Shown here: positions 11,872-24,959 of the stretch, piece after piece | Layout: each line of letters opens with the position of its first letter | Position numbering within the stretch: the stretch's first letter is position 1 | Source: Alphaproteobacteria bacterium | GTDB taxonomy: Bacteria > Pseudomonadota > Alphaproteobacteria > Micavibrionales > Micavibrionaceae | Length of the DNA stretch: 64,000 bases | Reading direction: 5' to 3' | Assembly: GCA_003245575.1 (NCBI GenBank) | Contig: QKCR01000041.1 | Location: 1-64,000, forward strand | The notes under the pieces: generated by a model | The model's input: the letters and a program-made list of their open reading frames with translations, nothing else | Told to the model about the DNA's origin: nothing | Database searches by the model: none | Position numbers and translations under genes: made by a program

Positions 11872-11924
11872 GCTACAAACGGGCTGCATTACTTAATCAA
11901 GGAGTAGCCCGTTATGTCTGTAGC
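11872..11924 (+). promoter_or_regulatory. Extended hairpin enclosing the purH ribosome-binding site and start codon
   Basis: AACGGGCT (11878-11885) pairs perfectly with AGCCCGTT (11906-11913), and directly outside it GCTACA (11872-11877) pairs with TGTAGC (11919-11924). The inner 20-base loop carries the AAGGAG ribosome-binding site, and the 5-base bulge ATGTC holds the purH start codon. There is no T-run, so this is not an intrinsic terminator for cheR. The arrangement suggests control of translation initiation of purH. Confidence 0.6.
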
Positions 11925-13500
11925 CGCAAAACCCCGTTCGACCCCTCGCCCTGACCGTGTCAAAGTGACAACAGCCCTGCTGTCTGTCTCGGATAAAAGC
12001 GGCTTGATAGAACTGGCAAAAGCCCTAAGCACGGCAGGCGTTAAACTCCTCTCGACAGGCGGCACATCCAAAGCCATCCGCGAAGCAGGCTTAGATGTTA
12101 CAGATGTGTCAGAACACACTGGCTTTCCTGAAATCATGGACGGTCGCGTTAAAACGCTCCATCCGAAAGTCCATGGAGGACTTCTTGCGCGCCGTGATGA
12201 TACAGACCATATAAAAGCCATGACAGAACAAGGGATCGGAGCAATCGACCTGTTGGTCGTCAATCTTTACCCGTTCAGAGAGACAGTCGCAAACGGTGCG
12301 GACTATGATAATTGTGTCGAGAATATCGACATCGGCGGACCGGCAATGCTCCGTGCTGCTGCCAAAAACCACGACTTTGTGACAGTCGTCACAGACCCGT
12401 CAGACTACACAACCATTGCTGAAGAAATCGCATCCGGCGGAACAACTTTCAAAACGCGCCAACGCTTGGCGGCAAAAACCTACGCCGCAACCGCCAGCTA
12501 CGATGCCGCAATTTCCGCATGGTTTGCCAAAGAGTTAGACGAAAGCTTTCCACAAACACTCTCCGTCTCGGCAACAAAAATCGACACGTTGCGTTACGGA
12601 GAAAACCCTCATCAACTCGCAGCCGTTTACGCTGACGGCTCAGGTCGAGCAGGCGTTGTCACTGCAAAACAGTTACAAGGGAAAGAACTTTCATACAACA
12701 ACTTGAATGACACCGATGCAGCCTTCGAACTGGTCTCGGAATTTGACAGCCCCGCTGTCGCAATTATCAAACACGCGAACCCATGCGGCGTGGCAACAGG
12801 TGCAGACATGATCTCTGCCTATAAAGACGCCCTTGCCTGTGACCCAGTCAGCGCGTTTGGCGGCATCATCGCTCTGAACCGCAAACTGGACGGTGCGACA
12901 GCAGAAGAAATTATAAAGATTTTCTCGGAAGTTATCATAGCCCCTGAAATTTCAGACGAGGCAAAGGCGATCCTTGCCGCCAAGAAAAATGTCCGCGTAC
13001 TAGAAACAGGAGGCATGGCCGATCCGAAACAAGCCCGCATGACGCTGAAAACAATTTCAGGCGGCTGGCTGTTACAAACAGCTGACAACGGTCACATCAC
13101 CGAAGCAGACCTGAGAGTCGTGACCAAGCGCGCCCCCACGGAACAGGAACTCAAAGACCTGCTTTTTGCCTTCCGCGTATGTAAACATGTCAAATCAAAC
13201 GCAATTATCTATGCCAAAGGCGGAAAAACAGTCGGCATCGGTGCAGGCCAGATGTCCCGTATTGATTCCAGCCGCATCGCGGCATGGAAGGCCAAGGAAG
13301 CGGGTACAGAGATCGAAGGCTCTGTCGTAGCCTCAGACGCGTTCTTCCCCTTCCCTGACGGCCTATTGGCAGCCGCCGACGCCGGCGCGACAGCCGTCAT
13401 CCAACCGGGCGGATCAATCAAGGATGACGACGTCATCAAAGCCGCAGATGAACGTGGATTGGCAATGGTATTAACAGGAATGCGCCACTTCAGGCATTAA
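11914..13500 (+). CDS. purH: Bifunctional AICAR transformylase / IMP cyclohydrolase
   Basis: PurH carries out the last two steps of IMP synthesis: formylation of AICAR and ring closure. The 528 residues cover both domains. The N-terminal cyclohydrolase (MGS-like) half contains [27 protein letters not shown] and [20 protein letters not shown]. The transformylase half contains [35 protein letters not shown], and [11 protein letters not shown], ending in [12 protein letters not shown]. The ATG follows AAGGAG by 12 bases and sits inside a potential hairpin. PurF, the first enzyme of the pathway, is also encoded in this window about 34 kb away on the other strand. Confidence 0.97.
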
Positions 13501-13603
13501 TTCTGTCCTAACTCCATTAAGACTTTCTTTACCCTTTTTTTATGGCATTACCTATCTAGGATCAGGTAGAATAGGAAAAAATTAAGAAGAAAGAGGGTGT
13601 AAA

Positions 13604-14818
13604 ATGGCGAGTTTCTGGAGTGATATTAAATCATCTTCCTCATACCAAACTTTGGTAAGAGCAATAGACGCCGCCCCACTGCCCTCAAATATCATCAATA
13701 GACTTATAGATTCAAACCATACTGCAAAAGTTATTAGAGATGGCCTAGTCGAAGGCACGGCTGAAACAATTGGTTACGGCTTAGGACTTCCGCAAACTTT
13801 ATATAAATTTTGGAAAGAACATGTTGACGGAGAGCGCTTTGAAGAGCCGCCGGAAAAGCAAGAATATTCTCCTGAATGGTTTAAAAGTCAGCTAATGGGA
13901 GAATATGAGGACAATCTCAGAATTTTAAGAAAAACTAGACCAGAACTTAGGCCCGGAACCTATGATGGATATATTCACGCTGGAGCCAGCTTTGTACCAC
14001 TCATAGGATCTGCTTTTATTCCTGGCGGCCAGGCCGCTGGCGCTTCGAAAGTAGGGCAAGTTATATCTTTCGTCGCCCCGAAACTTGGGGCAGTAGGCTT
14101 TGCTACAACTACAGCCACGGAAGGATATGAAGTTGCGGAGGAATACTTGGATTTTGGAGCAGCAACACAAGAACTGGTAGGATTTGGACTTCCCAATAAA
14201 CCTTCACCGCCACCTCAGGATAGTTTAACATCTAATCAAGCAAATAATATGGCACCAACGGCCACAGAACCGATCAAACCAGATGCCGCATCTTCAGCAC
14301 CTCTAGTTTCCCCCCCTAAGTCGCACGCGATCATTCTAGGTCTCACAATCGGGACCACACTTCAAGAAGATGGAGGAACGACGAAATTTGACACTGAAAA
14401 AACAACCCTGCTGCAAACGGAACTCGCAAATATGGGACGATACTCCCATAAGATAGACGGAATTGCAGGTAAACATACAATGAACGGGCTCGATTCTGCG
14501 ATAAAAGAGATAATTAAGCCAACCAGCCTAAGTGATGACATCAAATCTCTTTACAAGGACAAAATGGCAGAATTATCAAAAGACTTACGGAACAACCCTC
14601 CAAATGAATTTGCCTACGATCCGAGAGTAACTGCTTTTCAAGTATGCGGATACGCACTAGGTATTTATAATAAAAAGATTGATGGCCTGATGGGTCCATC
14701 AAGCATGAAAGCAGCCCAACTTATTGAAAATAAAGATTTTAGCGTAAACAACACGCAAGTTGCGGCAAGTCCGGCACCGCAACCACCAAAAGTAGAGCTT
14801 GCAACGATTGCACCATAA
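13604..14818 (+). CDS. Unknown protein with two C-terminal peptidoglycan-binding-like repeats
   Basis: No family is recognised for the whole 404-residue protein. The ATG is preceded by AGAGGG. The N-terminal 120 residues are polar and aromatic-rich. Residues about 125-190 form a Gly/Ala/Val-rich weakly hydrophobic stretch (SFVPLIGSAFIPGG, VISFVAPKLGAVGFAT) that could associate with membrane. A Pro/Thr/Ala-rich linker follows (about 205-240). The C-terminal part has two copies of a motif resembling the PG_binding_1 fold: HKIDGIAGKHTMNGL near 283-300 and KKIDGLMGPSSMKAA near 357-372, each preceded by a helix like LLQTELANMG or FQVCGYALG. No clear signal peptide is seen. First gene of a six-gene codirectional run; 105 bases separate it from the next. 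Confidence 0.8.
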   Translation: MASFWSDIKSSSSYQTLVRAIDAAPLPSNIINRLIDSNHTAKVIRDGLVEGTAETIGYGLGLPQTLYKFWKEHVDGERFEEPPEKQEYSPEWFKSQLMGEYEDNLRILRKTRPELRPGTYDGYIHAGASFVPLIGSAFIPGGQAAGASKVGQVISFVAPKLGAVGFATTTATEGYEVAEEYLDFGAATQELVGFGLPNKPSPPPQDSLTSNQANNMAPTATEPIKPDAASSAPLVSPPKSHAIILGLTIGTTLQEDGGTTKFDTEKTTLLQTELANMGRYSHKIDGIAGKHTMNGLDSAIKEIIKPTSLSDDIKSLYKDKMAELSKDLRNNPPNEFAYDPRVTAFQVCGYALGIYNKKIDGLMGPSSMKAAQLIENKDFSVNNTQVAASPAPQPPKVELATIAP

Positions 14819-14820
14819 GA

Positions 14821-14838
14821 GACATTTAAACAAATGTC
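14821..14838. other. Short perfect stem-loop
   Basis: GACATTT-AAAC-AAATGTC lies 2 bases after the stop codon of the preceding gene. It lacks a T-run, so it is at most a weak transcript-stabilising hairpin or a protein-binding inverted repeat; it is AT-rich and only 7 bp long. Confidence 0.35.
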
Positions 14839-14861
14839 GGACGATAGAGAACTATAAAAGT

Positions 14862-14891
14862 TTGCATTTTTCTATAGAGCTATGATAGAAT
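14862..14891 (+). promoter_or_regulatory. Candidate promoter for the 14.9 kb gene
   Basis: TTGCAT (14862-14867) and TAGAAT (14886-14891) are separated by 18 bases and lie about 30 bases before the start codon. The -10 element matches the sigma-70 consensus in five of six positions; the -35 is weak. The call is by eye only. Confidence 0.35.
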
Positions 14892-14923
14892 GCAATTAAC
14901 ATATAAAATAAGGAGTGTGTAAG

Positions 14924-16060
14924 ATGGGGTTAGTTAGCAAGCTAAAAGCTGCATATAAAGCATTTAAAGAGGGCGACGCCATCAGGAAAGGCGTGCGCGC
15001 AGCCGCATACACAGCCGAGGAGATAACGCCTGAGATAGCAAAAATTCACGATAAGCAACGCGTACTTGTGGAAGGCATTGAAGCTGCCTTGAACCCAAGG
15101 AACAAAACGCTCGGAGAATCTGCAAAGGAAGCCGCATCGAGTGTAGGAAACTTAAGAAAAGGCACAGGGCCTAATTTATCAGGAGCGGCGAATAGCGCAG
15201 CATCTAAGCAAGATACAATAGCAGAAGCAACAAAAGAACTCAGACAGCACATCTCCTCAGAGGACTATGGTAAATTAAAGTTAATGGAAGGAGATCTAAA
15301 GCCTCAAGAAGCGCTAGATGCTCTTTACTCTGGCTACAGAATTTCTCCGGAAAGTTTCAGAGCGTTAAACAAACAACTTTCCACAGGTACCCTCGTCCCA
15401 ACATCCGGTCTGAAGAAAGCAGCCATAGTTGGTGCAGTCGCTGTAGCTTCTGCGGGAATATATAATGGACTAGAATCTCAATCAGACCAAAACGACAATA
15501 ACCTCAGTTTTGGTGAACGTATTGTGTACAATGGCAAAAAGTTCTGGATGGGCATTACAGGATACGGACAAGATACTTGGGTTACAAACGCACTGAACAA
15601 AAACCCAGGCGACAGGATCGCCGTAGCATTAAAAGGGAACATAGATAAAAATATTGCTGACGCGCAAGAATCAGGACAAACAAAAGCTGATACCAACAGA
15701 GCACTTCAAGTTGCTCGAGCAAATGAGGGGTCTGTTAATGTTGCCCAACAAGTAGGAACCGCATTCCTGACCGGAGTGCCTCAGGTAGGTGTTGATAGTG
15801 CAGCCTCAAAATTCGGAGCACTTATTAAGTCTCAAGGTGCGGCTTTGACTGCTGAGAAAATAACCGAGTACGAAACTGCCTTTAGAGGTATTCTGCGAGA
15901 ACAAATTGACCAAAATAAAGATTCTATGTTACAGCCAGCAGAAGCAAAAGGCTTGGCGTCATCAGATAGCTTTATTAAGCTAATTGAGGGATTGCCGATA
16001 AATGAGCAACAAAAAGCTTATGTAGCAAGCCAAACCCTTGCTATGACAGGATATAAGTAA
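14924..16060 (+). CDS. Unknown single-pass membrane protein with EF-hand-like loop
   Basis: The start is the ATG at 14924, set by AAGGAG 8 bases upstream. The 378 residues fall into a basic, helical N-terminal half (MGLVSKLKAAYKAFKEGD...), one hydrophobic segment near 164-182 (AAIVGAVAVASAGIY), and a C-terminal half of about 195 residues beginning with an aromatic patch (ERIVYNGKKFWMGITGYG). Near the C-terminus residues 329-340 read DQNKDSMLQPAE, which fits the calcium-binding EF-hand loop at positions 1, 3, 5, 8 and 12; position 6 is Ser instead of Gly. Positive charge before the membrane segment suggests N-in, C-out. No family recognised. Gene 3 of the run starts 49 bases later. Confidence 0.78.
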   Translation: MGLVSKLKAAYKAFKEGDAIRKGVRAAAYTAEEITPEIAKIHDKQRVLVEGIEAALNPRNKTLGESAKEAASSVGNLRKGTGPNLSGAANSAASKQDTIAEATKELRQHISSEDYGKLKLMEGDLKPQEALDALYSGYRISPESFRALNKQLSTGTLVPTSGLKKAAIVGAVAVASAGIYNGLESQSDQNDNNLSFGERIVYNGKKFWMGITGYGQDTWVTNALNKNPGDRIAVALKGNIDKNIADAQESGQTKADTNRALQVARANEGSVNVAQQVGTAFLTGVPQVGVDSAASKFGALIKSQGAALTAEKITEYETAFRGILREQIDQNKDSMLQPAEAKGLASSDSFIKLIEGLPINEQQKAYVASQTLAMTGYK

Positions 16061-16108
16061 GCCACACAGAATATTTATATATAGAGATTACACATAAGAG
16101 AGGGCAAA

Positions 16109-16972
16109 ATGGCTACAGGTAATCAAACATCTACAGCAGGCGCTGCAGGAGTGCAGAACGAACAAGAACTTGCCTTACAGGGTCTGTTCAAATCGATTGC
16201 ACAAATCGATCCGAATTCGCCTGAAGCTGCGGTAGAAATGATGCGTCTGTTTGAGGGCTATTACAAACAGACCGGTAATATGCAACTCGCTGAGAACGTA
16301 AACCAAGTTCTCAAAAAAGCACAGGAAGGTAAATTAGATCTTCGTAAAGCGTTTGGCGACTCTACGCTTGAAATATGGAAGCTAGCGAGAACAACCGAGC
16401 AAAAACTTCAAGAAAAAGATCAAAGTCAATATCTGGATGCTTACTATGGCACGCAACAACAACGCTTGTCAGCTGAACTTGATGTTCAAACAATGGTAAT
16501 CAAAGGTGCAGCCGGAGGTTACAAGCTTCTGGCAATGATAGGGTCTATCCTATCAGCTATTCCTGGCTTGGAACAAATCGGCAAGGATTTGGTCCAATCC
16601 TCCATCCAAGCATCAAAAGAGCTGAAAGTTGACAAGATAGAAGAAGATGCCATCCGTCAATCTGACCGCGAGAACGCTAAAAAACCAAAAATCGGCGAAG
16701 TCACTGCTGAAGATGCCGGAAAGAAAGCAGATGCAATCATAGCTCAAATTATGAATGATGCTAAGATCGTTGGTGAATCAAGAGGCTCACAACGCGCTAG
16801 CGGAGGAACCAATCCGGATGCCCCACAGCAAACGCCTTTTAGTGCAAACGGGACTACAGCAACGACACCAGCAGCAGCCAGTGGCACACCTGCACCTACA
16901 CCTGCTGCAGATAAACCTGCGATTTGCAACACATCTTTCGGCAGCAAAATGCCCGAATGCCAGCCTAGCTGA
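16109..16972 (+). CDS. Unknown helical protein, third gene of the 13.6-23.1 kb cluster
   Basis: The 287-residue product is not recognised. It has GAGAGGG before the ATG. The first 130 residues are helical and polar (LFKSIAQIDPNSPEAAVEMMRLFEGYYKQ), then a moderately hydrophobic stretch around 132-160 (GAAGGYKLLAMIGSILSAIPGL), another charged helical part, and an Ala/Pro/Thr-rich tail that ends in a short segment with two cysteines (ICNTSFGSKMPECQPS). The tail's cysteine pair recalls the C-terminus of the next gene's product, which also ends with two close cysteines. No signal peptide. An intrinsic terminator follows at 17008, so this gene closes the first transcription block of the cluster. 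Confidence 0.75.
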   Translation: MATGNQTSTAGAAGVQNEQELALQGLFKSIAQIDPNSPEAAVEMMRLFEGYYKQTGNMQLAENVNQVLKKAQEGKLDLRKAFGDSTLEIWKLARTTEQKLQEKDQSQYLDAYYGTQQQRLSAELDVQTMVIKGAAGGYKLLAMIGSILSAIPGLEQIGKDLVQSSIQASKELKVDKIEEDAIRQSDRENAKKPKIGEVTAEDAGKKADAIIAQIMNDAKIVGESRGSQRASGGTNPDAPQQTPFSANGTTATTPAAASGTPAPTPAADKPAICNTSFGSKMPECQPS

Positions 16973-17007
16973 TCAAGGTAATCGCAAGAAACAGGTCCTT
17001 TAGCTTA

Positions 17008-17029
17008 AACCGCCTCAAGGCGGTTTTTT
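17008..17029 (+). terminator. Rho-independent terminator
   Basis: AACCGCC (17008-17014), loop TCAA, GGCGGTT (17019-17025) and a run of T to 17029. It separates the first three genes of the unknown cluster from the last three. Confidence 0.9.
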
Positions 17030-17190
17030 CTATATCGCAAAAGCTTGCAAAATATGACGAAAATATGGCATGATATGTGCGTTCGAGACATAATACTAGG
17101 CAACACGCACCAGAAAAAGCGGATAAAAAGAGATTGCCAGAAATTCCGAACAAACGGCATTAGAGTGAAAGATAAATAGAGGGTAGTGTC

Positions 17191-19485
17191 ATGTTATTTC
17201 ATGAAGTGAAAGATTCTGTAGACAGAAGCGAGAAACCTGTTCGCGTTTGGGACCATTTGATTGGAGCCAATACGGAGGAAGCCAGAAATCGTCGCCTGAA
17301 CGAATGGGATAGCGCAGCCCAACTTCAACAATACAGAGCGGCCTTTGTTCAGGAATTAAAAGCTCTTTCGGAAAGCGGTACACCTTTCACAGAGGAAGAC
17401 ATTCTCGAAAAACTGAACATGACACAAAACATGTTCTCTCTCGAAGAGGATCAGCTTCAACGTTATATCCAACAACGCCAGAGCGAAGTTAATCCGACTC
17501 TAGCAACAATAGAGAGCATTCGTAATATTCTGGCGACTAACGACTTTACAGATCAGGATAAAGCAGACTTCGATCAGGCTATTCGCGATAACGAAGAATC
17601 TATCCAAGCACCACTGAATGAAATCAAAATTGCCGAACGTCTGAAGAGAGCAACCCAAACTCTACTTAACCGCAGCTTAAGAGAAGCGGCCGAGCTGATT
17701 GTAACATTACCGGAAGACCGCCGATTAAAACCTGCCATTCTGGACGAAGAAACCAGAAGCAGCATCGAATCATTCGGCCTTGATCCAGACACCACAACCA
17801 TAGACACTGTTGAACTGACTGAGGCAGATAGATTCCCGCGTACCTCCCCGTCAAAGACCCCTTACGTTCCTCTGAGCGAGATTCGTCTGGCAGTCGAAGA
17901 CTTCTTGTCTTCGGAAGTAACCGCGCCTAAGGTAGCTGCAGCAGAAAAGACAGCCGCACAAGCTATTGAAAAAGCGATGGCCCCAACAGAAGCAAAACCA
18001 ACTGAGCCAACATCTGAAAAACCGGCACTGGCACCGGCAAGTCAACCTGCCCCGGTATTAAGCACGCTTAACAAGATCGAACGTGACCTTGAAATAGAAG
18101 CAGCCCATGACTTGGCCAAAAACTTCAAGACATATAAAGACAATCCGGATTTGGAAGCACTGATCCTTCTGCATTTCAAGCAACCCGTTACACGCACGGC
18201 ACGCATAATTAACGAACGCTTGGGACAAGGCCTGAAAGACGAGCAAACATTAGAATTGATCGAGCACAGACGGGCGCTCATGGCGTTTGCAAAACAATTC
18301 GACGAATTAAAAACCGCGCGTGATTTGGCAGAAAACTTTGAGAACCACAAAAACAACCCAGACCTGAACAAACTCGCGGAACAACATTTCAAGCAACCGA
18401 TCGCTCGCGCAACACAAGCCGTTAAACTCCGTCTGGAACAAGGCCTTAAAGACGAGCAAACATTAGAATTGATCGAACATAAACATGCTTTGATCGCTTA
18501 TGCTAAAAAGTTTGATAACCACCACACGGCGGAGAACAATCTCAGACAGGTTAAAGAAGCGTTTGGTTTGAAGGGGGATCAATATGTGTTGGCCGCGCAG
18601 GACGACTACGCCCCCCCGTTGGAGGATGAAAGTCTGGATGATTCAGAACACGATAGATTTGCTCCTGAGGAGTTAAAGGATCGCGCAAAAACATTGTGGG
18701 ACTTTGCTCATACTGATGAAGTATCAACTCTGAAAGCATATTTATTCAGCTCAATGGTAGATGATTTGAATGAAGCTCGAGACGTAGCAAATGTGCGTCG
18801 GGAAAAAGGCGAAGATGTCTCGCATATCGAAAAATTCATCTTGCATGCTCAAATCAGTGCAAAAATCGCAAAAGACAGAATAAAAGAATGGGATATAGCC
18901 AACCCTGAAACAGAACCTCAACCTCAACAGAGTAACGGACTTCTCGGGCGAATCGGCAAAAGCGTATCTTCCCTGACCTCCGCGTTCACACATGCCGTTA
19001 AGTCGGTCAGAGAATTTGTAACACCTAAACGCCTGGCTTTTGGCGTTTTGGGAGCGGGTGCAATCGCCGCAGCCATTTGGGGAACAACACCAAACACACC
19101 TGATGTAAAAACGGATTTTACGGCAGCGACAACTCCGACAGTAACCGCCCCAACAGCATCGACAGCACAAAAAATCACCCCTGTCGCAATAACTCTACCT
19201 GCCGCACAATCAACACCAGCAGTGTCAGATGCGCCGAAACAAGTGATGCATGGTGATTTTACCTTAGCTGAGGTCAAATCTATGTTTGGAGAGCCTCTGG
19301 AAACACCGGAAGCCGCAAAACCAGCCCACAAAAAAGCTCCATCCGCACGATCCCAATTCGCTCAAGCGTCTGTTGCCGCAGAGCCAACAGGAATCTCCAA
19401 TGTGGACAGAACAAAGGCATGTAACTTTGTATATCCGAATGGGGGCGAAGGGCTGCAAAGCTGCTTAAATATTGCACTGAATTAA
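17191..19485 (+). CDS. Unknown 764-residue protein with tandem 71-residue repeats and late membrane segment
   Basis: No family recognised. AGAGGG lies before the ATG. Residues 1-250 are helical and acidic. Residues 305-445 hold two tandem copies of a 71-residue unit: each copy has a DLA-NF start, HFKQP in the middle and the identical block LKDEQTLELIEH. The underlying DNA keeps a 29-base identical stretch at 18235-18263 and 18448-18476. After more helical sequence, a single hydrophobic segment near 616-634 (FGVLGAGAIAAAIWG), preceded by basic residues, suggests a large cytoplasmic N-terminal part and a roughly 125-residue Thr/Pro/Ala-rich C-terminal part outside the membrane, ending in CNFVYPNGGEGLQSC. 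A weak promoter pair TTGCAA/CATGAT lies near 17044-17080. Possibly a scaffold for the hydrolase proteins encoded next. Confidence 0.82.
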   Translation: MLFHEVKDSVDRSEKPVRVWDHLIGANTEEARNRRLNEWDSAAQLQQYRAAFVQELKALSESGTPFTEEDILEKLNMTQNMFSLEEDQLQRYIQQRQSEVNPTLATIESIRNILATNDFTDQDKADFDQAIRDNEESIQAPLNEIKIAERLKRATQTLLNRSLREAAELIVTLPEDRRLKPAILDEETRSSIESFGLDPDTTTIDTVELTEADRFPRTSPSKTPYVPLSEIRLAVEDFLSSEVTAPKVAAAEKTAAQAIEKAMAPTEAKPTEPTSEKPALAPASQPAPVLSTLNKIERDLEIEAAHDLAKNFKTYKDNPDLEALILLHFKQPVTRTARIINERLGQGLKDEQTLELIEHRRALMAFAKQFDELKTARDLAENFENHKNNPDLNKLAEQHFKQPIARATQAVKLRLEQGLKDEQTLELIEHKHALIAYAKKFDNHHTAENNLRQVKEAFGLKGDQYVLAAQDDYAPPLEDESLDDSEHDRFAPEELKDRAKTLWDFAHTDEVSTLKAYLFSSMVDDLNEARDVANVRREKGEDVSHIEKFILHAQISAKIAKDRIKEWDIANPETEPQPQQSNGLLGRIGKSVSSLTSAFTHAVKSVREFVTPKRLAFGVLGAGAIAAAIWGTTPNTPDVKTDFTAATTPTVTAPTASTAQKITPVAITLPAAQSTPAVSDAPKQVMHGDFTLAEVKSMFGEPLETPEAAKPAHKKAPSARSQFAQASVAAEPTGISNVDRTKACNFVYPNGGEGLQSCLNIALN
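18109..18534 (+). repeat. Tandem repeat of a 213-base coding unit
   Basis: Two consecutive 213-base units encode the 71-residue repeat in the 764-residue protein. The strongest identity is the 29-base block beginning at 18235 and again at 18448, exactly 213 bases apart; flanking codons have diverged. Confidence 0.85.
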
Positions 19486-19561
19486 TAATAGCTATAAAAG
19501 GCGTTATAAAAGTAAAAAGGGCCGATAGAGCCCGAACAAGGTATAATAGAGGACTGAGTTA

Positions 19562-21307
19562 ATGGAACGGACAACACCATCCGACCCCACATTTGCGCGC
19601 ACTTCCGATCGCGAAAAAGCAGTCATGTCCATAATATCGGACATAACAAATAATCCGTCATCTAATGCCCACAAAGAAATCATGCTTCTTCGCCTGCATG
19701 ACATGTTGAAAGCTGAAAGAAAATCCCTGTCAGCAGATCCAAATGCAGACCAAAGCTCAAAAAACGAAAATATAAGATTAAGCTTGATCGTCGCACGTCA
19801 TATCAAAACATTTCAAACCGAACGTCAGGAACGAGCGAAAAAGTCTTCACAGGCCAATCAAACCGAAAGAACAACTTCTAGTCAAGAACGAGACATAAAT
19901 ACGCCTAAAAACAACGCTCCAAATAAAAAACAGTTTTCTGAAAACATCGGAAAATTTATTTCCCGAATTGTAAACAGCATAACATCCACTTACCAAGCTG
20001 GGAAAAAGCAGGTTGAGGCAGCACATACGCATGTACAACCCTATCTGGAAAATAATGCCAAAGGCGCAAAAAAATTATATATAAAATTTCGAAATAGAGC
20101 GCAGGATAGTCTTGCAGATCACATAGACGCAGCACGTAAAGGAGTCAAAAATGCGACATTCTATGCTCGGTATAAATACAAAGAAATTAAATCAGATGCA
20201 GCTTCCCTAATTGAGCGTTTAAATCGCACACAAAAGATACTGGCTGCAACAGTTATTCCGGCAGCCGCGGCAATTGTAATTGCACCAGCTATATTGATGT
20301 CATCAAACGATGTACCCTCCAATCGGATGACATCACCGATCGATGAATTCAATACACTTTCTAAACCTCTTCCAATCACTGTTAAAAAAGCTGAACAGAA
20401 AATTGCCGCGCAAACACCAATCCCTGAGCCTGTTAAAGATATTATTCAGCAAACACCAAAGCCTGATACCATAAAGGTTGAGAGACAAACTGTAGCTTCG
20501 TCAGAGCTTGCGCCCAAACCAAGAAAATTTGGAAGAGGACGTGTACATATTAATTACACAGCCCTTTTAAGAAATCCGGAATACCGCGACCTGCTTGTCC
20601 AAGCGGCTCATAAAATGATTCATGAATATAGCGCAGAAGAGGTCTATCAAGGGATCATCATGACCGAATCCGGAGGAAAACAGTTTGACAGCACAGGAAA
20701 ACCATTAAGATCCAGAGCAAACGCCATTGGAAAGGCACAAATGCTCCCATCCACCGCCGAAACCATTGCAAATGACTGTACGGGAAAACCGGTTATTTGG
20801 AACAAGTTCTACTACAACGAACAGTATAACTATGACTTGGGCTATTGTTATTTCAAAGCCATGCGCGAAACCTATGGCAACAACATTCTGGCTGGTTTGG
20901 CCTATAACGGTGGGCCTGGTGGGCTGGAATGGAGAATGCGCAGGAACGGTTATAGCCCAACTAACGATCCGCATAAAACAGTTGAGTTCATGGGCAATAT
21001 CCGCAACATGGAGAACAGAGAATACATCGCCCAAACCATGGTTAAATTGGGTTTGATTGATCTTAGCAAACTTGGGCCAGATGTTCTGACGGAAAGAGTC
21101 ACAACATATAGTGACACTACTCAATACAAATATACTGTAAAAAAACCGGTTAGAGGGAACAGCATTACAGATAATGATCGCCCATCAAGGGCAGAGAGCC
21201 AGATATCGGGGCAGTTTAGAGCCTCACAAAGAGCATCATTAACAGAAACACCTAGTAGAGCCAGCAGAGCAAGCTCAAACACTGCACCTAGTGTACATAT
21301 CAACTAA
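19562..21307 (+). CDS. Membrane-anchored protein with C-terminal lytic transglycosylase domain
   Basis: The 581-residue protein starts after GAGGACTGAGTTA. Its N-terminal module (about 1-85, core LKAERKSLSADPNADQ and ENIRLSLIVARHIK) is shared with the next gene's product. A basic helical spacer leads to a membrane segment at about 224-245 (AATVIPAAAAIVIAPAILMS). After a Pro/Lys-rich linker comes an SLT-like domain: IIMTESGGKQFD with candidate catalytic Glu369, AIGKAQMLPSTAETIA, and LAGLAYNGGPGGLEWRM. The predicted topology puts the hydrolase in the periplasm. A Ser/Arg/Thr-rich tail follows. It would cut glycan strands; only the hydrolase domain resembles known proteins. Part of the six-gene run. 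Confidence 0.85.
   Translation: MERTTPSDPTFARTSDREKAVMSIISDITNNPSSNAHKEIMLLRLHDMLKAERKSLSADPNADQSSKNENIRLSLIVARHIKTFQTERQERAKKSSQANQTERTTSSQERDINTPKNNAPNKKQFSENIGKFISRIVNSITSTYQAGKKQVEAAHTHVQPYLENNAKGAKKLYIKFRNRAQDSLADHIDAARKGVKNATFYARYKYKEIKSDAASLIERLNRTQKILAATVIPAAAAIVIAPAILMSSNDVPSNRMTSPIDEFNTLSKPLPITVKKAEQKIAAQTPIPEPVKDIIQQTPKPDTIKVERQTVASSELAPKPRKFGRGRVHINYTALLRNPEYRDLLVQAAHKMIHEYSAEEVYQGIIMTESGGKQFDSTGKPLRSRANAIGKAQMLPSTAETIANDCTGKPVIWNKFYYNEQYNYDLGYCYFKAMRETYGNNILAGLAYNGGPGGLEWRMRRNGYSPTNDPHKTVEFMGNIRNMENREYIAQTMVKLGLIDLSKLGPDVLTERVTTYSDTTQYKYTVKKPVRGNSITDNDRPSRAESQISGQFRASQRASLTETPSRASRASSNTAPSVHIN
19704..19798 (+). repeat. Near-identical coding segment shared with 21549-21643 (copy 1)
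   Basis: This stretch and its partner encode the shared N-terminal module core of the two hydrolase proteins. Even most synonymous positions are the same (for example the run aaaatccctgtcagca and atataagattaagctt), which suggests recent duplication or gene conversion confined to this module. Confidence 0.8.
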
Positions 21308-21406
21308 CTTAAAGAGAATAGTAGTCAAAAACACACAGCTAAAATAGAGATAATTAGAAAGAGTTTCAAAGAGCTCTCCAAACGGTAATAATAACAAGGG
21401 TAAAAA

Positions 21407-23056
21407 ATGGAACGGAAGGAAATATCCGAAACCAATAAAGTACACGCCAGCAACCGCGAACTTGCAACTATTAACTACATAAAAAATATAGTCTTGTCGC
21501 AAGTTTCTGCGAGCGTAAAAGAGGCAAAGCTCATTCATTTGCATGAAATATTGAAAGCAGAAAGAAAATCCCTGTCAGCAAATCCAAATGCAGATCAAAG
21601 ATCAAAAGACGAGAATATAAGATTAAGCTTAATCGTCGCTCGCAATATAAAAGCGTTACAAATCCTGCGCCAAGAAAAATCTGCAAGATTTAAAAATTCC
21701 AATCCCGCCCCGGAACAAGAAGCAAAAGAAACTGCGCAAAAATTTACCCAAGACTCCGAAGATAGTCCCAAACAAGAAAAGACAAAAGCTCGCGGCTCAC
21801 GAAAGCAATATATAACGACAATGTTATCTTCAACTTCAAAGAAAATAGATAACCTAACAGACGTCGTACGCCTCAGTCTTGAAGACAAAAAAAGAAACAT
21901 GACAGCACGATATAACCGCGCTGTTTCAGATACTATATTGTTTATAAACAACTACACGCGCATCTGCACCGCACTAATAAAGCGAGTTGTCCCGGCCGCT
22001 ACTGCAATCATCATTGCACCCGCAATTCTTGTTTCCGGGCAAAACAATTCAAACGTGGAACCTCGTTTTTCTACAAATTTTAATGCGGCCTCCAGAGGAA
22101 ACATTTCGGATCAAAAACCCGAACCTACAAATAATCACGCCAATACCATCTCGAATAATGTAGAACCAAGATCAGCATCTCCCAAGCCACTGGCTTTTAT
22201 CCCTCAGCCCAAAGCCCAAGTTCTGGATCGCTCACAATACCCTGTAAAGGTACACATACCGTCTTTACAGCCCCCGAGGGATGTTGAGGGAATCGTTAAC
22301 ACAGCGATTGCCGAATGGGTGAAATCAGCAGACCATAAAACTTACGGCTTTTATGCTGATGGGATTCGCCAGAGGAACAGAGTAAGTTGCTCTAGTTTTA
22401 TCAGAAACGTCATCGGGAACGTCAATAGACATGCTAGCGAAGTCGGGATGAGCCTCCCGACACGCCATCTGCCCTATAACTCTGCGGCTTTAGTTGCCTA
22501 TGTGTCAGAAGCAAATAAACAAGCCCCCAGAAAACTTTCCTCCGGAAAAGAGCTTCTAAAACTCAGACCAGGGGATATAGTTGGCGTAGATTCTGGCGTA
22601 AATAAACACAAATATGACAAGGGAATTGATCATATTTTGATTATTTACAGGGACACGCAATCCCAAAAACTTATGATTGCCGAGAGCACTTCTCGCCGCG
22701 ATAAAAAAGATGGAAAAACAGGAGTTCAATCCTTATCCGTTGAAGATTATATGGTCCTGCTTGAGAAGCGCCGTCATTGGAAATTTTATGTAACTCACAT
22801 GACAGCCCTGCTCCAAGAAACGCCGGATGCCATAATAGTGCCAGACAAGAAACAAACACGCACATCGCGTTCCAAAACGGCACCATCCCAAGCTGCAGTT
22901 ACGGAAGAGCCGCTCATACAAAAGTTCAGAACAGCCAACACTCCTGATTCTGCAGTCCTATCCTTGGCACAAGGAACTAATGAAAGACGCGTGGCAGCGA
23001 TTCTTGAAGGTAGAGGCGAGCAATTCGAGCAGGCCGTACCGCCTCCCCGAATGTAG
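21407..23056 (+). CDS. Membrane-anchored protein with C-terminal NlpC/P60-like domain
   Basis: This 549-residue paralogue of the preceding gene product has the same N-terminal module (LKAERKSLSANPNADQ, ENIRLSLIVARNIK) and a membrane segment at about 190-212 (VVPAATAIIIAPAILVSG), but a different C-terminal enzyme-like domain. That domain has RVSCSSFIRNVIGNV with candidate nucleophile Cys328, LRPGDIVGVDSG, and GIDHILIIYRD with candidate His409, followed by MIAEST; this is the order seen in NlpC/P60 cysteine peptidases that cleave peptidoglycan stem peptides. The assignment is by motif order only. A tail of about 90 residues follows the domain. AAGGG precedes the ATG. Last gene of the run; lepA follows after 88 bases. 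Confidence 0.8.
   Translation: MERKEISETNKVHASNRELATINYIKNIVLSQVSASVKEAKLIHLHEILKAERKSLSANPNADQRSKDENIRLSLIVARNIKALQILRQEKSARFKNSNPAPEQEAKETAQKFTQDSEDSPKQEKTKARGSRKQYITTMLSSTSKKIDNLTDVVRLSLEDKKRNMTARYNRAVSDTILFINNYTRICTALIKRVVPAATAIIIAPAILVSGQNNSNVEPRFSTNFNAASRGNISDQKPEPTNNHANTISNNVEPRSASPKPLAFIPQPKAQVLDRSQYPVKVHIPSLQPPRDVEGIVNTAIAEWVKSADHKTYGFYADGIRQRNRVSCSSFIRNVIGNVNRHASEVGMSLPTRHLPYNSAALVAYVSEANKQAPRKLSSGKELLKLRPGDIVGVDSGVNKHKYDKGIDHILIIYRDTQSQKLMIAESTSRRDKKDGKTGVQSLSVEDYMVLLEKRRHWKFYVTHMTALLQETPDAIIVPDKKQTRTSRSKTAPSQAAVTEEPLIQKFRTANTPDSAVLSLAQGTNERRVAAILEGRGEQFEQAVPPPRM
21549..21643 (+). repeat. Near-identical coding segment shared with 19704-19798 (copy 2)
   Basis: Second copy of the module core described for 19704-19798. 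Sequence outside this block in the two genes has diverged strongly at both DNA and protein level. Confidence 0.8.
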
Positions 23057-23127
23057 CCTGTCTATGGCAAAATTCAGTCTTTAATCCGATGGGGCATCAC
23101 ATAAAACCATTGAAAAAAGGACAAAAA

Positions 23128-23143
23128 CCCCCTATTGAAGGGG
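23128..23143 (+). promoter_or_regulatory. Small hairpin that masks the lepA ribosome-binding site
   Basis: CCCC (23128-23131) can pair with the GGGG of the ribosome-binding site (23140-23143), one base before the lepA ATG, with an 8-base loop. The stem is short, so any effect on translation is inference. Confidence 0.4.
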
Positions 23144-23144
23144 C

Positions 23145-24959
23145 ATGACAACAACGCCATTAGACAAAATCCGCAACTTTGCGATTATTGCCCACATCGA
23201 CCACGGGAAATCCACCTTGGCCGACCGCCTCATTCAATCTTGCGGCGGCCTTACCGACCGTGAAATGAAACAACAAGTGCTTGATAACATGGAGATCGAA
23301 CGCGAACGCGGCATCACCATCAAAGCACAAACGGTCCGCCTGAATTACAAAGGGGCAGATGGCGAAACATACCAATACAACCTCATGGACACACCAGGCC
23401 ACGTGGACTTTACCTATGAAGTCTCGCGCTCTCTGGCCTCCTGTGAAGGCTCCCTGCTCGTTGTGGATGCCACTCAGGGCGTAGAGGCACAAACGCTTGC
23501 CAACGTCTATCAGGCAATTGACAACAATCACGAGATCATCCCCGTCATTAACAAGATCGACCTGCCCGCAGCAGATGTCGAACGCGTGAAAGAACAGATT
23601 GAAGATGTCATCGGGATTGACGCATCTGACGCTGTCTGCGTTTCAGGAAAAAGCGGAATCAACATCGACCAACTTTTAGAGGCCATCTACAAACGCTTGC
23701 CCGCACCTAAAGGCCAAACCGACACCCCAACCAAGGCGCTACTGGTTGACAGCTGGTACGATTCCTATCTGGGCGTGGTTATTCTGGTGCGCGTTATTGA
23801 CGGGTATTTGAGAAAAGGCATGAAAGTCCGCTTTATGGGCAGTAAAGCCACGCGCGAAATTGACCGTGTCGGTATCTTTACACCAAAACATGTGCTGGTT
23901 GACGAACTGGGCCCGGGAGAAATGGGCTTTATTACCGCAGCCATCAAGGAAATCTCCGAAACCAAAGTCGGGGATACCATCACAGAAGAAAGCTTTGCTG
24001 ATAAAGTGAAACCTCTCGCGGGCTTTAAACCTTCAGTCCCGATGGTGTTCTGCTCCCTATTCCCGATCGACAGTTCCGAATTCGAAAAACTCCGTGACTG
24101 CTTGGGCAAACTCGCTCTGAATGACGCATCTCTCCACTATGAACAAGAAAGCTCCCAAGCTTTGGGTATGGGATTCCGCTGCGGTTTCTTGGGCCTCCTC
24201 CACATGGAGATCATTCAAGAACGCCTCGATCGCGAATTTGATCTGGACCTGATTCCGACAGCGCCGAGTGTGGTCTATAAACTCGACCTCACCGACGGGT
24301 CAAAAATGGAAATTTATAACCCTGTCGATATGCCGGAAGTCCAACGCATCAAGGAAATTTACGAGCCTTGGATCAAAGCAACCATCCTCACCCCTGACGA
24401 ATATCTGGGCGGATTGTTGAAACTCTGCGAAGAACGTCGCGGTGAACAGATCAACCTGTCTTATGTCGGCTCTCGTGCAATGCTTGAATACCGCTTGCCG
24501 TTAAACGAAATCGTTTTCGATTTCTATGACCGTCTAAAATCCATTTCCAAAGGCTATGCAAGTTTTGATTATCATCTCGATGATTTCGTTGCAGGTGATC
24601 TGGTCAAAATGGACGTCATGGTCAACCAAGAAAGCGTTGACGCCCTTGCGATGATCGTTCACCGTTCCCAAGCAGAACGCCGCGGTCGCCAGCTTTGCGA
24701 ACGTCTGAAAGACCTGATCCCGCGCCAATTGTTTAAAATCGCCATTCAGGCCGCCATCGGCGGGAAAATCATTGCCCGCGAAGACGTATCAGCCATGCGC
24801 AAAGACGTAACTGCGAAATGTTACGGCGGTGACGTGTCACGGAAACGCAAACTCCTCGACAAACAAAAAGAGGGTAAGAAAAAGATGCGTCAATACGGGA
24901 ACGTTGAAATCCCTCAATCCGCCTTTATCGCCGCTCTCAAAATGGGCGATGAGAAATAG
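23145..24959 (+). CDS. lepA: Elongation factor 4 (LepA), ribosome back-translocating GTPase
   Basis: The 604-residue product matches LepA along its full length. The G domain has [15 protein letters not shown] (P loop), [20 protein letters not shown] and NKIDLP. Domains II and III follow, and the LepA-specific C-terminal domain ends [23 protein letters not shown]. It acts on ribosomes under stress or during assembly. AAGGGG precedes the ATG. It has the GC content of ordinary chromosomal genes, unlike its downstream neighbour. Confidence 0.98.

Follow-up and report, generated by a model that had tools for sequence, protein, structure and literature searches.

That wall hydrolases are linked to envelope-crossing machines is well documented, and these enzymes are frequently lytic transglycosylases binding to core components (PMC5061870). 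VirB1, FlgJ, EtgA and TagX resemble the locus described here in that wall hydrolase genes lie within a cluster of envelope proteins, an enzyme is membrane-associated and the chemistry is that of a lytic transglycosylase (PMC5061870). Our locus comprises six consecutive plus-strand ORFs between purH and lepA (Table 1) in a 64-kb window, by which we mean the whole stretch of DNA analysed, drawn from a genome of 2.3 Mb in 160 contigs that is 90% complete. This genome represents a genus of the Micavibrio family (Micavibrionaceae), which includes the epibiotic predator M. aeruginosavorus. The strongest signal of the locus appears to be its hypervariability, combined with mosaic exchange, at one fixed position in the chromosome. 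That the ORFs are more than chance is indicated by homologous ORFs standing in the same order in relatives.

Table 1. Features of the purH–lepA slot and its borders (window coordinates).
Feature	Coordinates	Strand	Remarks
purH	11914..13500	+	left border of slot; conserved in relatives
Gene 1	13604..14818	+	404 aa; ORF
Two PG_binding-like half repeats, gene 1	14408..14746	+	LLQTELANMGRYSHKIDGIAGKHT / AFQVCGYALGIYNKKIDGLMGPSS; below curated cut-off
Gene 2	14924..16060	+	378 aa from ATG 14924; 381 aa from GTG 14915
EF-hand-like loop, gene 2 aa 332–343	15908..15943	+	DQNKDSMLQPAE; by inspection, canonical-looking
Gene 3	16109..16972	+	287 aa
Intrinsic-terminator-like hairpin with T-run	17007..17026	+	between genes 3 and 4
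Gene 4	17191..19485	+	764 aa
Tandem duplication in gene 4	18109..18534	+	2 x 71 aa, 59% identical
Gene 5	19562..21307	+	581 aa
Gene 6	21407..23056	+	549 aa
lepA	23145..24959	+	right border of slot

The ORF list confirmed the arrangement of six consecutive genes described in a first-pass annotation of this DNA. That annotation recognised none of the six as a whole as a member of a family. Genes 1–4 found no convincing counterpart in Pfam, NCBIfam, PHROGs, PADLOC or the PDB; gene 5 matched Pfam SLT, and gene 6 is of a putative NlpC/P60 type. The SLT domain of gene 5 was the sole convincing match among the six genes in Pfam, NCBIfam, PHROG and PADLOC, and the PADLOC models of known anti-phage defence systems matched none of the six. 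The likely start codon of gene 2 is ATG 14924 rather than GTG 14915, because AAGGAG extends into the GTG and the same pattern occurs in relatives. Several slot genes have in common a GGAGTGTGT-x-ATG-like start context (window 14905–14926; relatives at L026, L027, L015, L065 and L100), and because of this shared context the true start of slot-gene ORFs that open with MC.M or MEC.M probably lies a few codons further in.

Genes 5 and 6 putatively encode wall hydrolases that share an N-terminal module. In gene 5 this module is followed by a clear membrane segment (aa 226–244, KD 2.38) and an SLT domain (aa 358–459) that matched Pfam SLT at E 2.8e-7, with 30.5 bits against a cut-off of 21.3. The gene 5 profile also matched Slt chains in the PDB (E 3.7e-9), and the catalytic Glu, E369, was invariant in the three aligned proteins; we regard the product as a lytic transglycosylase. 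Gene 6 continues from its module into a clear membrane segment (aa 191–209, KD 1.87) and a hydrolase domain (aa 293–470). The window protein had no match in Pfam, NLPC_P60 included. Two of its relatives from other genera did match NLPC_P60, the G072 protein at E 3.8e-4 (20.9 bits against a cut-off of 23) and the G012 protein at E 0.022. The AlphaFold (AF2) model of gene 6 was usable only in about aa 16–96 and 293–470, with pLDDT 70–86 in most blocks of the hydrolase domain and lower values in some. In a VIA comparison, aa 292–470 of this model aligned with NlpC/P60 chains at Z 10.9, 10.4 and 10.3, the best partners being the cell wall hydrolase 4hpe (Z 10.9) and the NLP/P60 protein 4fdy (10.4), in a list that also held unrelated helical matches up to Z about 9, all on the N-terminal bundle. 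Cys328 and His409 were invariant in 4/4 aligned proteins. Because of the AlphaFold model (Z 10.9) and the intermediate relatives, gene 6 is best described as a putative divergent NlpC/P60-type hydrolase.

The N-termini of the two proteins are related (40% identity over aa 1–143, E 1e-28), and in both a single membrane segment separates the long N-terminal part from the catalytic domain. A topology with the N-terminus inside and the catalytic domain outside is plausible for both. The G001 relative of gene 5 carries a twin-arginine (Tat)-type signal, MSDNNETNLNRRRFLQAAG, at its N-terminus instead, which places that enzyme outside the inner membrane, in the periplasm. The first-pass description of genes 5 and 6 as membrane-anchored wall hydrolases with related N-termini was thus borne out by the SLT match, the NlpC/P60 model and the likeness over 143 residues. 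Its further idea, a long cytoplasmic N-terminal part preceding a periplasmic part, is plausible for these two genes, the Tat-type signal of the G001 relative bearing on the same question.

Gene 4 encodes a long helical N-terminal part, a fair membrane segment (aa 615–633, KD 1.61) and a C-terminal tail with two Cys, and has relatives in G002, G005, G007 and G004. Originally labelled a repeat protein with a late membrane segment, it does contain a tandem duplication (Table 1), but the duplicated unit is single-copy in the aligned relatives. The related claim that four of the six proteins have a single hydrophobic segment was correct in outline: the segments are firm for two (genes 5 and 6), fair for gene 4 and weak for gene 2 (aa ~160–178, KD 1.38). 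Genes 1 and 3 have weak hydrophobic stretches only.

The products of genes 1–3 are helical and had no structural match, and PDB profile searches with genes 2, 3 and 4 yielded nothing usable. Gene 1 combines a helical N-terminal region, two weakly hydrophobic stretches (aa 124–142 and 153–171), a Pro-rich linker and the C-terminal PG_binding-like repeats; its relatives in G002, G005 and G004 are 48–52% identical. Its AF2 model was too weak to indicate a fold, and Foldseek and VIA were uninformative. The repeats were seen by Pfam PG_binding_1 in 4/4 close relatives, but with scores below the curated cut-off (best E 9.5e-4), and the window copy reached E 0.065 and 13.9 bits, under the cut-off of 23. 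We name them PG-binding-like only, and wall binding by gene 1 is weakly supported. For gene 2, first taken for an EF-hand-like membrane protein, one EF-hand-like loop was visible by inspection, but Pfam EF-hand gave no match and the hydrophobic segment is the weak one noted above. Gene 3 has a weak hydrophobic helix (aa 140–158) and a disordered-looking tail with a Cys pair at its end, and its profile retrieved calbindin (calbindin D9k) from the PDB at E 0.27, a hint only. Separately, S100/calbindin-like pseudo-EF loops (e.g. KIDGDPKNLSGTEL) were seen in the C-termini of gene 3 relatives (L062 2619–3668, L014 12057–13028 and L064 14712–15728), and Pfam S_100 scored E 0.023 on the G006 relative. 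Shuffling of an EF-hand domain between genes 2 and 3 was considered and rejected, since profiles give it no support.

Divergence within the locus far exceeds that of its surroundings. The flanks of G007 are 78–99% identical to the window (lepA 99%, purH 88%, cheA 92%), whereas the similarity of its genes 3–6 to those of the window covers part of their length at 24–31% identity, BLAST finds no counterpart there for genes 1 and 2, and two genes of the locus are inverted relative to the window. The lepA genes of G002 and G005 are 92–93% identical to that of the window, and gene 3 is 72% identical to that of G005 (71–72% across G002 and G005). Gene 2 appears to be a mosaic of two lineages: aa 4–247 are 53% identical to G004 and aa 265–381 are 66–68% identical to G002/G005. 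The N-terminal part of the G002/G005 proteins, by contrast, is for the most part unrelated to that of the window protein. Relationships inside the locus conflict with those of the flanking genes. The combination of hypervariability and mosaicism can be read as allele exchange at a fixed slot.

Most genomes of the genus carry a set equivalent to genes 1–3. The gene 3 profile matched 10/11 genomes of the genus and 0/93 others of the Micavibrio family, where 9 of the 10 matched genomes were themselves sources of the profile and the real test lies in the tenth (G010) and in the absence elsewhere. In G010 the gene 1–3 set stands at another chromosomal place (L114). A class-wide search with gene 3 gave one marginal match (E 7.9e-4). 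The gene order of the window is kept in G002, G005 and G004; in G007, G006, G001, G003 and G008 the genes are rearranged or the set is reduced. Genes 4–6 are patchier: gene 4-like genes occur in G002, G005, G007 and G004, SLT genes in G006 and G001, and NlpC genes in G002, G005 and G007, while the purH–lepA intervals of G004, G003 and G008 contain no hydrolase gene. By hhalign, orthology was supported for gene 2 A/B (96.7%) and for gene 4 with G004 (98.9%), reached only 35.8% for gene 3 A/B, and was unsupported for gene 1 A/B and gene 4 A/B, the orthology of the more divergent members resting partly on position.

The locus falls into two modules, a core of genes 1–3 and an accessory set of genes 4–6: a terminator-like hairpin follows gene 3, and genes 4, 5 and 6 vary between genomes. 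The hairpin is the only plus-strand terminator-like site found in 13300–23300. Relatives of the genes do occur together rather than scattered, as expected if they form a system, but the picture of one uniform six-gene unit has to be given up: genes 1–3 recur, genes 4, 5 and 6 come and go, and the terminator-like site divides them.

The slot, upstream of lepA and usually after purH, extends beyond this genus. Of the 31 family loci (window included) that have purH and lepA on one stretch, 30 contain large unrecognised genes in the interval, the exception being G018. In many genera the slot holds a short protein, often a protein of ~500 aa, a giant of about 1,100–1,860 aa and a pair of small proteins related to each other; in G047, from another family of the order, it holds only one small protein. 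We claim no single system across the family, as no profile-profile match was obtained between the giants and the core of this genus. The slot itself is shared across the family, whereas homology of its contents to those of most other genera was not detected.

Several features of these other loci deserve mention in their own right. Giant genes of about 1,100–1,860 aa, some split in two, encode C-terminal hydrophobic segments and fill the slot in many genera (L074, L076, L080, L081, L103, L110–L112, L120–L122, L125–L127 and L131); the giants scanned against Pfam gave no match. The G012 slot contains genes of 552, 676 and 299 aa. About 20 kb from it (L143 2665–9509), five genes stand between succinyl-CoA synthetase (suc) genes. 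Their products are a membrane protein of 609 aa that carries a lysozyme-like motif, a pair of small proteins, an NlpC/P60 protein related to gene 6 and a GH108 muramidase (E 3.7e-13), a group without clear signal peptides. G031 belongs to the same genus as M. aeruginosavorus; between its cheR and lepA (L068 4375–8117) lie genes for a glycine-zipper protein (Pfam Gly-zipper_Omp, E 4.3e-5), a protein of 438 aa and small paralogues. Holdfast-like genes suspected in the G009 slot were unsupported by Pfam and were rejected. C-terminal tails ending hydrophobic-x-hydrophobic were found in 28/84 slot genes versus 11/109 conserved neighbours (30 loci; Fisher p 1e-4), a test that is not independent because the neighbours are orthologues. 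The pattern may reflect a sorting signal, or it may be produced by the comparison with orthologues.

We favour, at a probability of roughly 0.4, the reading of a modular envelope locus that diversifies fast while keeping a fixed slot, whose hydrolases would act at one inner-membrane site and whose core would assemble a trans-envelope structure. By analogy with the hydrolases of envelope-crossing machines (PMC5061870), the N-terminal module common to genes 5 and 6 would tether the two enzymes to a single inner-membrane site, probably together with gene 4. The anchored hydrolases would open a local gap in the wall at that site, and the helical, possibly membrane-inserting core proteins 1–3 could assemble a trans-envelope structure through it. 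Diversification suggests that such a structure meets something variable outside, whether a prey surface, rivals or phages; mosaic exchange is the kind of trace that an interaction pressed to change would be expected to leave. The locus may be a contact or injection device, the first-pass annotation having suggested a secretion, attachment or predation apparatus, and prey contact is the role that we favour, inferring it from lineage and diversification. Chemotaxis genes lie upstream of the locus and may be mere neighbours. A bolder form of the proposal, in which a locus that usually lies beside lepA encodes an undescribed trans-envelope apparatus of Micavibrio-type epibiotic predators whose parts, through direct contact with prey surfaces, diverged between genera until their sequences could no longer be recognised, seems to us doubtful. 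Either way, the locus provides a short, concrete gene list for testing Micavibrio-type attachment and feeding through the prey envelope.

The hydrolases do not evidently serve a type IV or type VI secretion system (T4SS or T6SS), since VirB4 is absent in 10/11 genomes of the genus, including the 90% complete window genome (one fragment occurs in G008), and the T6SS sheath protein VipB was found in 0/11. Against the favoured reading, the cluster has no transport ATPase, outer-membrane channel or secretin, and several genomes of the genus lack genes 5 and 6 in this interval, as described above. Hypervariability would also fit a polymorphic effector island, with gene 2 and the hydrolases acting as toxins against prey or rivals and their neighbours protecting the producing cell. 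The C-terminus of gene 2 would then be exchanged jointly with gene 3 as a toxin with its immunity partner, in keeping with the single lineage to which these two belong (66–72%, G002/G005) and the different lineage of the gene 2 N-terminus (G004), and hydrolases are common antibacterial effectors. We nevertheless think an effector island unlikely: no toxin domain was found, gene 3 is without any mark of immunity, in place of a delivery marker the hydrolases carry a long N-terminal part followed by a membrane segment, and the genus is devoid of the T6SS sheath protein.

A module that remodels or shapes the cell's own wall, with gene 1 binding the wall, genes 5 and 6 cutting it, genes 2–4 positioning and no part in contact, would account for the fact that every supported activity lies on the side of the inner membrane that faces the cell's own wall, and for the presence of the core in nearly all genomes of the genus. 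Shape and division modules, however, are usually conserved in sequence, whereas the sequence of this locus changes much more quickly than that of the adjoining genes, and the hydrolases are dispensable; we think this account unlikely as well. Still less probable is a domesticated or decayed mobile element, that is, phage or satellite genes for DNA ejection and lysis kept at an insertion hotspot. The turnover of content is hotspot-like, the SLT domain of gene 5 matches PHROG endolysin and tape-measure profiles, and sister genera have large helical proteins bearing hydrophobic segments. Yet the PHROG matches are limited to the SLT domain, scans of IMG/VR found no relatives of genes 1, 3 or 6, phage structural or packaging genes were not recognised in the locus, and the slot is filled in all but one of the contiguous family loci.

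A diversifying trans-envelope locus, the reading that we prefer, shares features with several known systems. With the MIDAS adhesins and chimeric fibres of Bdellovibrio (PMC11003981, PMC10769870) it has in common a proposed role at predator-prey contact; the Bdellovibrio prey-handling proteins are different proteins from a different lineage, so that the likeness is one of proposed role only and no homology is claimed. Gene 6 resembles NlpC/P60 hydrolases (4hpe, 4fdy) in fold, in a Cys at a helix start and in a His before or on the sheet, but lies beyond Pfam detection and has its domain preceded by a helical part of ~190 residues and a membrane segment. Like Slt70-type lytic transglycosylases, gene 5 has an SLT domain with a catalytic Glu and the AIGKAQMLPSTA and AYNGGP motifs, although the likeness is limited to the catalytic domain and the helical N-terminal part is shared with gene 6 instead. 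In comparison with VirB1, FlgJ, EtgA and TagX, the remainder of the cluster matches no known machine and includes no ATPase or channel, and here two enzymes of apparently different chemistry share one long N-terminal module.
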